Shown here in pieces: positions 50,660 to 53,458 of a stretch of 64,000 nucleotides of DNA. The stretch's first letter is position 1. Every line of letters starts with the position of its first letter. The position numbers were made by a program, and so were the translations under genes. Origin of the DNA: Streptomyces sp. NBC_00224 (GTDB lineage: Bacteria > Actinomycetota > Actinomycetes > Streptomycetales > Streptomycetaceae); the NCBI RefSeq assembly GCF_041435195.1, contig NZ_CP108106.1, forward strand, positions 6,239,501-6,303,500, written 5' to 3'. The notes below the pieces were generated by a model, which searched no databases, was not told the origin of the DNA, and was given only the letters and a program-made list of their open reading frames with translations.

Positions 50660-51901
50660 TCACCACAGCACCGGCAGCCGTTCCGGCAGGCGCTTGATGA
50701 AGCCGGTGCGCCACACCAGCTGTTCCGGCGGCACCGCCAGGCGCAGCCCCGGGAGCCGCTCCACCAGCGCGGTCAGCGCGATCTCCGCGTGCGCCCGGCC
50801 CAGACCCGTGGCCGGGCAGAAGTGGCTGCCCGCGCCGAAGGAGAGGTGCGGGTTGACCTCGCGGTCCAGGTCGAGCCGGTCGGGGTCGGTGAAGACCTCA
50901 GGGTCGAAGTTGGCGCCCTCGACCAGGACGAGCACCAACTCGCCCTTCCTGACCAGGACGTCACCGACCCGGGCGTCCTCGGTGGCCAGCCTCGGCAGGC
51001 CGTCCCCGATGGAGAGGTTCCAGCGCAGCAGCTCGTCCACCGCCCGGCCCATCCGGTCCGGACGCGCCCGCAAGTACTCGATCAGCTCCGGGTGCTGGAG
51101 CAGCGCGAGCACGGCGAGCACCAGGAACGCGGACGTGGAGACGGCGCCCGCGCCGAAGAGCGAGACCGCGACCGTCGCCAGCATCTCGTCGGTGAGGTGC
51201 GCGGACTCCTCCTCCGTACGCAGCTCCGCGAGGCGGCCGAGCAGACCCGCGCGCCGGTCCTCCGGCGCGTTGAGCCGGTCGACCATGTACCCCAGGTCCT
51301 TGTACCAGTTGAGGCGGGAGCCGTCGAAGGCGTGCGGGCTGGTCATGAACGCGATGTCCAGACCGCTCATCAGCCGCCGCCAGTCCGCGAACGGCACCCC
51401 GACCACCTTGCAGTGCAGAGCCGCCGAGAAGGGGTCGGCGAACCCCGCCCGGAAGTCCGCCGGCGGCCCCTCGGCGAGCAGCCCGTCGATGAACTCGTCC
51501 GCCCGCTCCCGCAGCCACTCCCGCAGGCCGTCGGTGCGCGGGTTGAGCGCCTTCATCACGGCGCCGCGCAGCCCGGCGCTGTTGATGTTCCCCATATTGT
51601 TGACGACCTCGGGCGGGATCGTCAGCGCGTACTGCCGCGGGGCGCCCGGGGCCGCGGTGTCCTTGAGGCTGAACCGGTCGTCCTCCAGGACCCGCTTGGC
51701 CAGCGCGTAACTGCTCACCAGCCAGGCGGTGTCGCCGGTCATGGTGCGCACCCGGGCCACCGGCTCCCTGGTGCGCAGGGCGGCGCACTCCTCGGGGAGC
51801 ACATCGCCGCGCCGGCCGAGCGGGAAGCCGAGCAGCGGGCCGGTGCCGGTGGTGCCGGCGGTCGCGCCAGCGGTCGTGGTGGTGGTGCTCGTGCGGCTCA
51901 T
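50660..51901 (-). CDS. CYP121-like cytochrome P450
   Basis: 413-residue soluble P450 from ATG 51901, overlapping the cyclodipeptide synthase stop (ATGA). It closely resembles, from memory, Mycobacterium tuberculosis CYP121, which couples the two tyrosines of cyclo(Tyr-Tyr) to mycocyclosin: shared AWLVSSYAL, PPEVVNNMGNI, LPRLATxDxxVGDVLVRKGE and the PERLPVLW end. The heme ligand is Cys362 in FGAGSHFCPATG, the ExxR motif is in DELLRW and the I-helix is LFGAGAVSTSAF. Substrate-contact positions differ: CYP121 Gln385 and Arg386 become Ile402 and Lys403. The substrate is surely a cyclodipeptide, but not necessarily cyclo(Tyr-Tyr). Electron partners are not adjacent. Confidence 0.9.
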   Translation of the reverse strand: MSRTSTTTTTAGATAGTTGTGPLLGFPLGRRGDVLPEECAALRTREPVARVRTMTGDTAWLVSSYALAKRVLEDDRFSLKDTAAPGAPRQYALTIPPEVVNNMGNINSAGLRGAVMKALNPRTDGLREWLRERADEFIDGLLAEGPPADFRAGFADPFSAALHCKVVGVPFADWRRLMSGLDIAFMTSPHAFDGSRLNWYKDLGYMVDRLNAPEDRRAGLLGRLAELRTEEESAHLTDEMLATVAVSLFGAGAVSTSAFLVLAVLALLQHPELIEYLRARPDRMGRAVDELLRWNLSIGDGLPRLATEDARVGDVLVRKGELVLVLVEGANFDPEVFTDPDRLDLDREVNPHLSFGAGSHFCPATGLGRAHAEIALTALVERLPGLRLAVPPEQLVWRTGFIKRLPERLPVLW

Positions 51902-52617
51902 GCGGCGACTCCTTCCGGGCGGACGGCCTGCGGGCGCACGACCGCGTACGCCTGGTTGCGGGAGGCGCGCAGACCGCCGCCCTTGGCGTAGAGGAGTTCG
52001 GTGAGCGGGATCAGCGCGTGATAGCTGGACACCGAGGACGGGACCTGGAGGATTCCCGGGGTGTCGAGGAAGAACGGGAGCTCGGCGGCGATGTAGTCGA
52101 GGCAGGCGGCGGTCTGCGCCGGGCTCACCGGGGCGCCGTCGGCCTTCCCGGCCAGGAACGCGGCGGCCATCTCCTCGCAGCCGGTGCGGAATTCGCGGTC
52201 GGTCGCGAGGAAGTGCCGCACCCGGCGGTGCAACAGGTCGTACACCGGGTTCCCCTCGAACTCCGAGAGCGCGTGCACACCGACCGGGAGCCCGGGGCGG
52301 CCGGCCTCCTCGACGCCCCGCACGATCCTTCTGCGGACCGCCTTCAGCTCCTTGGCGGCCCGCCTGCGCGCGTGCTCGTCGTCGTAGCCGAGCGTCGCGA
52401 ACATCCGGTCCACATGGCGGTCGGCGTAGACGAGGTCGACCCGGTCGAAGCGGGTGGAGGCCCAGCGGACGAGACCGGCGATGCGGTCGGCGCTGAAATA
52501 GCTGTTTCCCGGACTCACCCCGATGAGGACGTGGTCGCCCTCGTCCCAGATGAAACGACAGCTCCGGGTGAACGGCTGGAAGGTAAAGGTGGTGGTTGCT
52601 TCAGTGGTGGCAGTCAC
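51898..52617 (-). CDS. tRNA-dependent cyclodipeptide synthase (AlbC-like, NYH type)
   Basis: 239-residue enzyme that takes two aminoacyl-tRNAs and makes a diketopiperazine. It matches AlbC in length and motifs: the nucleophilic Ser35 in LIGVSPGNSYFS, Asn38, the Tyr175 and Glu179 pair in YIAAELPFF, and Tyr199-His200 in PSSVSSYH, placing it in the NYH subfamily. The amino acids used cannot be read from sequence. I choose GTG 52617 because its length equals AlbC, though AGGA directly abuts the codon; TTG 52683 is the alternative. The P450 gene overlaps its stop, so the pair forms a two-gene pathway like rv2275-rv2276. Confidence 0.9.
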   Translation of the reverse strand: MTATTEATTTFTFQPFTRSCRFIWDEGDHVLIGVSPGNSYFSADRIAGLVRWASTRFDRVDLVYADRHVDRMFATLGYDDEHARRRAAKELKAVRRRIVRGVEEAGRPGLPVGVHALSEFEGNPVYDLLHRRVRHFLATDREFRTGCEEMAAAFLAGKADGAPVSPAQTAACLDYIAAELPFFLDTPGILQVPSSVSSYHALIPLTELLYAKGGGLRASRNQAYAVVRPQAVRPEGVAA

Positions 52618-52788
52618 TCCTGAATCGCCCCAGCGCCGCGAGTCCCTGGGAGCCCTGTGCTCCCGGTGTGGCGGCGACAGCAAGAAGTTATCGCCCGGTG
52701 GCGGAGCGTAGGGAAGAGGGTTCCGGGCTTTTGGCGGGAATTCGACCCCTCGAAATGCCGTAGTCGATGTTTGCGGTGGCGGCAGGAC

Positions 52789-53458
52789 TCAGTGCGCGAC
52801 CAGCAGCGCTTCCGAGCCGACGGGGCGGTACCCCGCCGCCTGGAACGTCCGTACGCTGCGGGCGTTGCCCGGTGACTGCTGCGCCCAGACCACCGGCTCC
52901 GGCGCCAGATGCCGCGCCGCCAGCGCCAGCCGTACGCCAAGACCGCGCCCCCGCGCGCCCTCGTCCACCTCGATCGCCGCCTCCCAGCGGCCCGCCACGC
53001 CCCGCCCGAGGACCAGCACCCCGCCGTGCGTCGCCCACACCCTCACCTCGTCGCGGAACTTCAGCGCCCGCGCCACCCGGGGGTGGTCGGGGTCCGCCAG
53101 CTCCGTCAGCGCGAGCGGCGGCTCACCGGGCAGGGCGGGTGCGCAGGTGAGGAGGTCGACGCAGTTCATCCGACGGCCGGTACGTGCCATCAGCGCGGCC
53201 AGGAATCCCGGATTCATCGAGGCGCCCAGCGGATCGGCGTCGGTCGCGGCCAGGGTGGAGCGGATCCTCCCCCAAGCTCTTAAGGAGCAGGGGGGACCCC
53301 CACGGGTCCTCGTCCAGGAAGACCACCGAGTGCGCGGTGAAGGCGAGCACGCCCGCGTCGCGCGGGTTCGGCTGGGGAACGACGGTCGTCGCCCCGTCCG
53401 CGGGCGGGAAGTGCCCGCGTGCGGCGGCGGCCAGTATGTCGCCCAGTTCCTGCCCCAT
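52789..53458 (-). pseudogene. GNAT-type acetyltransferase disrupted by a frameshift
   Basis: Two frames together make one protein. The first, from ATG 53458 (MGQELGDILAAA), runs to about VVFLDEDPWG near 53306. The C-terminal GNAT domain (VDEGARGRGLGVRLALAARHL, acetyl-CoA loop, then QSPGNARSVRTFQAAGYRPVG) is read in another frame from about 53265 to 52789. Between them sits a 36-base palindromic element at 53266-53301 whose insertion explains the shift. The start of the C-terminal frame has no ribosome site. Unless a sequencing error or recoding is involved, the gene is broken. The original substrate is unknown. Confidence 0.7.
53266..53301. repeat. Mini palindromic element inside the GNAT gene
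   Basis: A compact element with runs CCTCCCCCAAGCTC and GAGCAGGGGGGACCCCC around the centre TTAAG; GCTC/GAGC and CCCCC/GGGGG arms give a hairpin. Similar short GC-rich palindromes recur in Streptomyces intergenic DNA, by my recollection. It interrupts the reading frame, adding about 31-34 bases net, which is not a multiple of three. Confidence 0.6.

Follow-up and report, generated by a model that had tools for sequence, protein, structure and literature searches.

We found that a cyclodipeptide synthase (CDPS) gene and a cytochrome P450 gene of Streptomyces sp. NBC_00224 are preceded by a structured leader whose base pairs are kept through compensatory changes in related loci. The locus is quite probably a two-gene operon of the guanitrypmycin type headed by a leader RNA, with its product, base, linkage, transcription start and hairpin action treated below as predictions. 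The pathway is most likely one known in kind, and its enzymes extend a known group by one. What is new here is the leader, apparently an undescribed structured element. It could represent a new class of regulatory RNA, which would matter more than the enzymes.

The CDPS and P450 genes

The window, the whole 64,000-nucleotide stretch of DNA that was analysed, belongs to an assembly of 9.18 Mb in 3 contigs. Two open reading frames, both on the minus strand, lie where a preliminary description of the sequence had put a CDPS and a P450. The CDPS gene (51898-52617) starts with GTG and encodes 239 amino acids (Pfam PF16715, 279 bits). The protein is of the NYH type, and Ser35, Tyr175, Glu179 and Tyr199-His200, read in the sequence, had been quoted correctly. 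The P450 gene (50660-51901) encodes 413 amino acids (PF00067, 63.7 bits) with the haem Cys362. The CDPS stop and the P450 start overlap as ATGA (51898-51901, minus strand), and GGAAGGAG, a Shine-Dalgarno-like sequence within the 3' end of the CDPS gene (51909-51916, minus strand), sits 7 bases ahead of the P450 start codon and may serve the P450. The arrangement behind the earlier suggestion of translational coupling is thus present, and coupling itself is plausible. A similar ATGA-like overlap was found in 15 of the 74 related loci having a CDPS.

Pfam searches of three genes per side detected HATPase, polysaccharide deacetylase and YNCE beta-propeller families, with weak matches to GNAT, EF-hand and serine dehydratase. 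No methyltransferase, ferredoxin or transporter family was detected among these six neighbours, in agreement with the preliminary description. The YNCE and deacetylase genes each occur in 40 of 78 loci, including those of S. purpureus, S. lavendulae and S. xanthophaeus, and mark a common chromosomal place. The same genome has a second CDPS-family match (G000:C1:8483245-8483727, L002; 55.9 bits), and an alignment of 140 residues gave 24% identity between it and the window CDPS. Further, CDPS and P450 lie in a single open frame, a possible natural fusion, at L040:5218-7227 (+) and L052:1155-3596 (+), both of which are without the leader.

The P450 clade, the CDPS pocket and the predicted product

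The best solved relatives of the window P450 were 9o4d ('Cytochrome P450 121'), PtmB, GymB1 and 8q6x (GymB5), followed by M. tuberculosis CYP121. The window P450 was 81.4% identical to 9o4d over 392 positions. The P450 of S. purpureus JCM 3172 (L011) was 99.7% identical to 9o4d over 392 positions, and that of Kitasatospora mediocidica (L034) was 100% identical to PtmB. In a tree of 83 P450 rows, from which one truncated P450 (L080, counted on the window side for residue tallies) was omitted, a split with support of 100/100 separated 61 rows from 22. The 61-row side contained the window P450, PtmB and the enzymes of S. purpureus, S. xanthophaeus and S. lavendulae, which places the window P450 in the GutD/PtmB-like clade that transfers nucleobases to cyclo(Trp-Trp) (cWW). 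The top structural match of its AF2 model (mean pLDDT 82.6) was PtmB with cyclo(Trp-Trp) and hypoxanthine, guanine or adenine, with which CYP121 and GymB1 were tied within 1 Z.

For the pocket we used the CYP121 entry 3G5H, which we take to be the complex with cyclo(Tyr-Tyr) (cYY). The contact set comprised the 16 residues within 5 Å of the ligand in that entry, as given in Table 2 of PMC11084333. The window P450 was identical to 9o4d at 16 of 16 contact positions and differed from CYP121 at six: M62L, V78I, T229S, F280I, Q385I and R386K. Ile402 and Lys403 (codons at 50693-50698, minus strand) align with Gln385 and Arg386 of CYP121; this replacement had been noted before, and it holds together with those of Val78 and Thr229. 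GymB1 and GymB5, which belong to the cYY clade, also carry four of the six differences (M62L, V78I, F280I and R386K). Within the contact set T229S and Q385I alone separate the window clade from the cYY clade. The window P450 thus lacks the Gln385/Arg386 pair that CYP121 has at the substrate, though 2 of the 3 mycobacterial rows, M. gastri and M. ostraviense, have Ala385; the pair that had been taken as the key one is therefore variable even among these three rows. The pocket of an orphan P450 (L013) is altered by F168H, A233T and I385V.

The altered CYP121 pocket of the preliminary description is not new, since it belongs to a whole known and crystallised clade. The description had further argued from the changed contacts to another cyclodipeptide or a product other than mycocyclosin. 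Clade, CDPS pocket and synteny point in the same direction; the argument from the contacts itself is weak, and partly refuted on the description's own terms, four of the changes being common to GymB1 and GymB5 and only T229S and Q385I not shared.

The P1 pocket of the window CDPS, LGVALFFS, is of the Trp type. Enzymes that accommodate Trp have V or I followed by A at positions 3 and 4 of P1 (PMC5816076, section 11), VA being found also in one Phe enzyme, and the window has VA at these positions. The cYY-type motifs are VG(I/V)TMLFN in P1 and LxFxQLP in P2, and the window, with LGVALFFS and MAFGAIP, has neither. The product of the S. purpureus CDPS is listed as cWW, 100%, in Table 1 of PMC5816076; in the text version of its Table 2 the pair LGVALFFS/MTFPQIP, carried by S. 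purpureus L011, is labelled W then Y, which conflicts with Table 1. The P2 motifs of the window and S. purpureus differ at 3 of 7 positions, and P2 was set aside as a product predictor because it is not predictive. In a CDPS tree without the incomplete L056 and L058, the cYY synthases formed a long branch nested among the Trp-type enzymes, close to L011 and L014, which may be an artefact.

The clusters of S. purpureus, S. lavendulae and S. xanthophaeus and the gym clusters for cYY are described in PMC7954767 and PMC10092475. Two of these clusters, those of S. purpureus (guanitrypmycin C3-1; GutD5737) and S. xanthophaeus NRRL B-5414, have the same gene order, neighbourhood, Trp-type P1 and leader as the window, with contact residues that are identical in the former and changed once in the latter. 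We tentatively equate the JCM 3172 strain (L011) with the GutD5737 strain NRRL B-5737 from the species and its single CDPS. The S. purpureus system differs in sequence, the window P450 being 81% identical to 9o4d and the window CDPS 75% identical to that of L011, and in its P2 motif. The P450 of S. xanthophaeus NRRL B-5414 (L026) was 73% identical here to that of S. purpureus (L011); the review PMC7954767 gives 57% for GutD5414. PtmA/PtmB of K. mediocidica (8yy7, 8yza, 8yyp) and GutA/GutD24283 of K. azatica belong to the same clade and have S229, I385 and K386, and differ from the window in about 70% P450 identity, Tyr at CYP121 position 276 and V228L. PtmB and GutD24283 carry out cWW and nucleobase chemistry, as predicted for the window pair. 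According to PMC13122648, cWW is the product of GutA24283, and GutD24283 joins it to guanine and hypoxanthine. The characterised members of the window P450 group couple guanine or hypoxanthine to cyclo(Trp-Trp).

We weighed two other readings of the enzyme pair. The CDPS might make cyclo(Tyr-Tyr), which the P450 would couple to itself, as in mycocyclosin, or to a nucleobase. According to PMC10092475, in which six clusters were tested, gym clusters yield mycocyclosin and nucleobase adducts; to judge from their names, GymB1 and GymB5 come from these clusters. For the window CDPS, the best solved relative is Rv2275; CYP121, GymB1 and GymB5 have the fold and most contact residues of the window P450, and CYP121 and GymB1 share most of its frame positions. 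However, these enzymes have a Tyr-type CDPS as partner, and T229 and M385 (or Q/A385). The window pair, in contrast, has LGVALFFS instead of VGVTMLFN in P1 and no LxFxQLP in P2, and its P450 lies across the 100/100 split from GymB1 and GymB5. Further, position 229 is S in 62 of 62 window-side rows and T in 22 of 22 cYY-side rows; position 385 is I in 61 of 62 window-side rows (V in one) and M (19), A (2) or Q (1) on the cYY side; and the window side is also marked by K184 (62 of 62) and, in most rows, by Y183 (56 of 62). On the grounds of clade, CDPS pocket and diagnostic residues we rejected this highly improbable reading. The other alternative is a pathway of the same type that makes a new guanitrypmycin, through another Trp dipeptide (cWX), a new linkage or another base. 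Linkages differ among the known relatives according to PMC7954767 and PMC13122648. The P2 difference from S. purpureus, in a motif that is not predictive, would agree with a new compound. The window P450 lies on a separate branch of four rows in the P450 tree, so that nucleobase and linkage cannot be read from relatives. The identity of all 16 contact positions with the S. purpureus enzyme speaks against a new compound, which we regard as possible, though not as the probable outcome.

We favour the coupling of cWW to a nucleobase by a new member of the known base-coupling P450 group. The CDPS would most likely condense two Trp-tRNAs into cyclo(Trp-Trp), and the P450 would then attach an indole of this dipeptide to guanine and/or hypoxanthine, the reaction of GutD and PtmB. 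From clade, pocket and chromosomal place, the window pair should yield cWW adducts; among characterised pockets, that of S. purpureus (guanine, C8 to N1) is the nearest.

Position and structure of the leader

Comparison of CDPS start regions revealed a conserved block of about 74 bases (52618-52691, minus strand), which matches models R1 and R2 and ends directly before the CDPS start codon. It consists, in order, of the -10-like hexamer TAACTT (52685-52690, minus strand), GCCACACC, a small hairpin, GGGAC and a 3' arm. TAACTT is conserved upstream of the hairpin and may belong to a promoter; a sigma-70 promoter scan gave no match. In Streptomyces leaders the outer stem stops about 1-4 bases before a purine-rich stretch, a candidate ribosome-binding site. 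Of the 78 loci, 71 have the leader, among them loci of the cWW and cYY sides alike, and 7 lack it: L040 and L052 (CDPS and P450 in one frame); L066, L069 and L073 (another subtype); and the two mycobacteria. Its alignment contains insertions of 1-2 bases, which argues against a shared reading frame.

The leader-model search covered 74 sources, fewer than all loci. The leader alignment omitted L052, L066 and L069, whose pattern matches were judged spurious by eye and which had no model match. Identical rows were counted once (66 of 72 rows, the window included), and all counts were taken from alignment A6; alignment A5, with two spurious matches, was unused. The model search gave no match at other CDPS genes of the relatives (L093, L096 and L097) or at L002, which were dropped as leader carriers.

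RNAalifold recovered the hairpin unaided from 66 aligned leaders. As defined by RNAalifold and pair counts, its core of 43 nt (52634-52676) comprises an outer stem (52671-52676/52634-52639), CC/GG pairs (52665-52666/52645-52646), an inner stem (52659-52663/52649-52653) and a pentaloop (52654-52658), all on the minus strand. For 13 pairs in 65 distinct rows (845 cells), 97.2% of the cells were paired, compared with 93.4 ± 0.3 in shuffles. Two-sided changes were seen in 46 cells (15.7 in shuffles) and 6 pairs (2.5 in shuffles), and covariation was 0.171 (0.100 in shuffles); none of 500 shuffles reached these values. Further pair types numbered 12 compared with 10.5, which 28 of 500 shuffles reached. 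Versions of the 13 pairs with slid partners were 35-51% paired. Most of the change occurred in the outer stem, where C-G/U-A counts were 33/25 and 44/14, and the unpaired positions (GCCACACC and GGGAC) were conserved as strongly as the stems. Thus, the leader shows the conserved pairing with compensatory changes that marks a cis-regulatory structured RNA.

Folding of single sequences was mixed. Of 72 rows, 53 gave the outer stem a probability above 0.5, the numbers with longer tails being 50 and 53; the shuffle z of the window hairpin was a modest -1.70, and a 63-nt stretch of the window folds differently from the hairpin. The case for the leader therefore rests on comparison and not on energy, and the folding energy of single sequences was set aside as proof. 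Some folds paired the 5' arm with the ribosome-binding region, as a switch might; this pairing was absent from the longer window fold, and we make no claim for a switch.

The leader resembles riboswitches and other cis-regulatory leader RNAs of Rfam 15 in its 5' position, covarying stems and conserved loops, and differs in that no family matches it. A search of window positions 52550-52800 with Rfam 15 at E up to 10 gave no match to the leader and one weak match outside the element; 8 further loci gave no leader match at the gathering threshold and one cobalamin riboswitch away from the leader. A cobalamin riboswitch (RF00174) lies at L029:1142-1384 (+), near the S. lavendulae locus. No published description of such a leader was found in literature searches or in the accessible part of PMC11610984.

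In six loci, mostly of Kitasatospora (L034, L037, L041, L042, L046 and L048), over 200 bases separate the leader from the CDPS match, and the ATG of a possible short open reading frame, often M-R-x-R, follows the leader. In K. mediocidica (L034) about 450 bases lie between its end and the CDPS match, unlike in the window.

Gene contexts and possible action of the leader

In its own genome the leader model gave one strong match (E 4.2e-22), the next having E 0.26. We also searched draws of 392, 199 and 345 genomes with strict filters. Among the 392 genomes of the genus, a CYP121-like P450 was found in 94 (104 places) and the leader in 109 (124 places). The leader lay within 2.5 kb upstream on the same strand at 100 of the 104 P450 places (median 736 bases; 4 without), a figure that is not fully independent because the genome sets overlap, to an unknown extent, with the loci that trained the models; what the leader matches precede, and the absence of other strong matches, are unaffected by this overlap. 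Conversely, 100 of 124 leaders precede a CYP121-like P450 operon. By inspection, the other 24 comprised 14 at small LuxR-type genes, 8 at broken CDPS-P450 loci (G209 assigned by eye only) and two others, one before a probable secreted-protein gene with no Pfam match (G048:C2) and one beside nothing recognised (G127). The leader shares the strand of its gene in all linked or inspected cases. Among 345 genomes of the class, a match was found in 12, covering 2 of 126 genera; the sole match outside the genus (G584) lies upstream of a CDPS-P450 pair.

The LuxR-type protein has 116 amino acids and a GerE domain. Relatives at E <= 1e-20 occurred in 10 of 199 genomes (13 places). Model R1, derived from the CDPS loci, matched 6 of the 13 places at the gene start (E <= 0.0032), and four more had the leader shape, by eye only at L154, L159 and L164 and by eye and model R2 at L162; L160, L161 and L163 had no recognisable leader. 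In 12 LuxR leaders, which were not used to derive the pairs and whose alignment was made to R1 and so leans toward the model, 93.6% of 156 cells were paired (86.2 in shuffles), 10 cells had two-sided changes (3.1) and covariation was 0.336 (0.194), values reached by 0 of 500 shuffles. Two inner-stem pairs were G-U in 8 and 9 of the 12 rows, which speaks for RNA over a DNA palindrome. The genes beside five LuxR loci (9 proteins, 6 without a Pfam match) had no common theme. A role of this LuxR type as regulator of the window operon is unsupported, the window's own genome having no relative at E <= 1e-20.

In the simplest view, the mRNA probably starts near the foot of the 43-nt hairpin, which is built of the outer stem, a CACA x GACUn internal loop, the CC/GG pairs, and the inner stem with its pentaloop, and which lies just before the CDPS ribosome-binding region. 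The hairpin would most likely control translation of the operon, its conserved unpaired bases being recognised by a ligand or protein. The leader is common to cWW operons, cYY operons and LuxR genes, which argues for a shared signal rather than a specific dipeptide. A more specific form of this idea is a new riboswitch class, a compact hairpin in which the invariant loop positions CACACC and GGGAC would recognise a small molecule that the pathways and the LuxR regulators have in common; this is speculative and rather improbable; the ligand might perhaps be a purine base or an amino-acid-derived signal. If this were true, one aptamer would control, in Streptomyces, the operons for alkaloids that join a nucleobase to cyclo(Trp-Trp) or cyclo(Tyr-Tyr) as well as transcription regulators that stand alone.

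Two accounts would dispense with sensing by an RNA. The leader could be a DNA operator, for example of a LuxR-type protein, as its place beside a -10-like hexamer and upstream of LuxR-type genes might suggest. However, its pairs are kept via compensatory changes and G-U, which would break a DNA palindrome, it never lies on the strand opposite to its gene in the cases linked or inspected, and the absence of such a LuxR at E <= 1e-20 from the window's own genome argues in the same sense; we think an operator quite unlikely. A stable 5' hairpin that merely protects the mRNA is conceivable but doubtful. The hairpin adjoins the start region and is without a known ligand, as such a clamp would be, whereas a mere clamp needs no unpaired GCCACACC and GGGAC conserved like the stems. 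Control of translation through recognition of these bases remains our preferred reading. According to PMC13122648 its guanitrypmycin cluster is seemingly silent in standard culture, and the activation of such clusters is not explained in the available parts of the cited guanitrypmycin and gym papers. With the leader at 100 of 104 P450 places and shared with LuxR-type genes, the question of cluster activation becomes directly testable.

Some further loci deserve mention. At L012, L013, L015 and L074 the CDPS is reduced to N- and C-terminal stubs with differing break points beside an open P450, and all four genomes have another CDPS next to a P450 elsewhere (L081, L085, L086 and L087), of the cYY type in the three that were read (L085, L086 and L087). 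A weak leader match (E 6.9e-4), which may be due to chance, lies at L202:1407-1480 (+) before an open reading frame that resembles an ECF sigma factor by eye. A leader match of 35.9 bits at L145:3276-4020 (-) precedes a probable secreted protein of 224 amino acids without a Pfam match, a possible third context of the leader.
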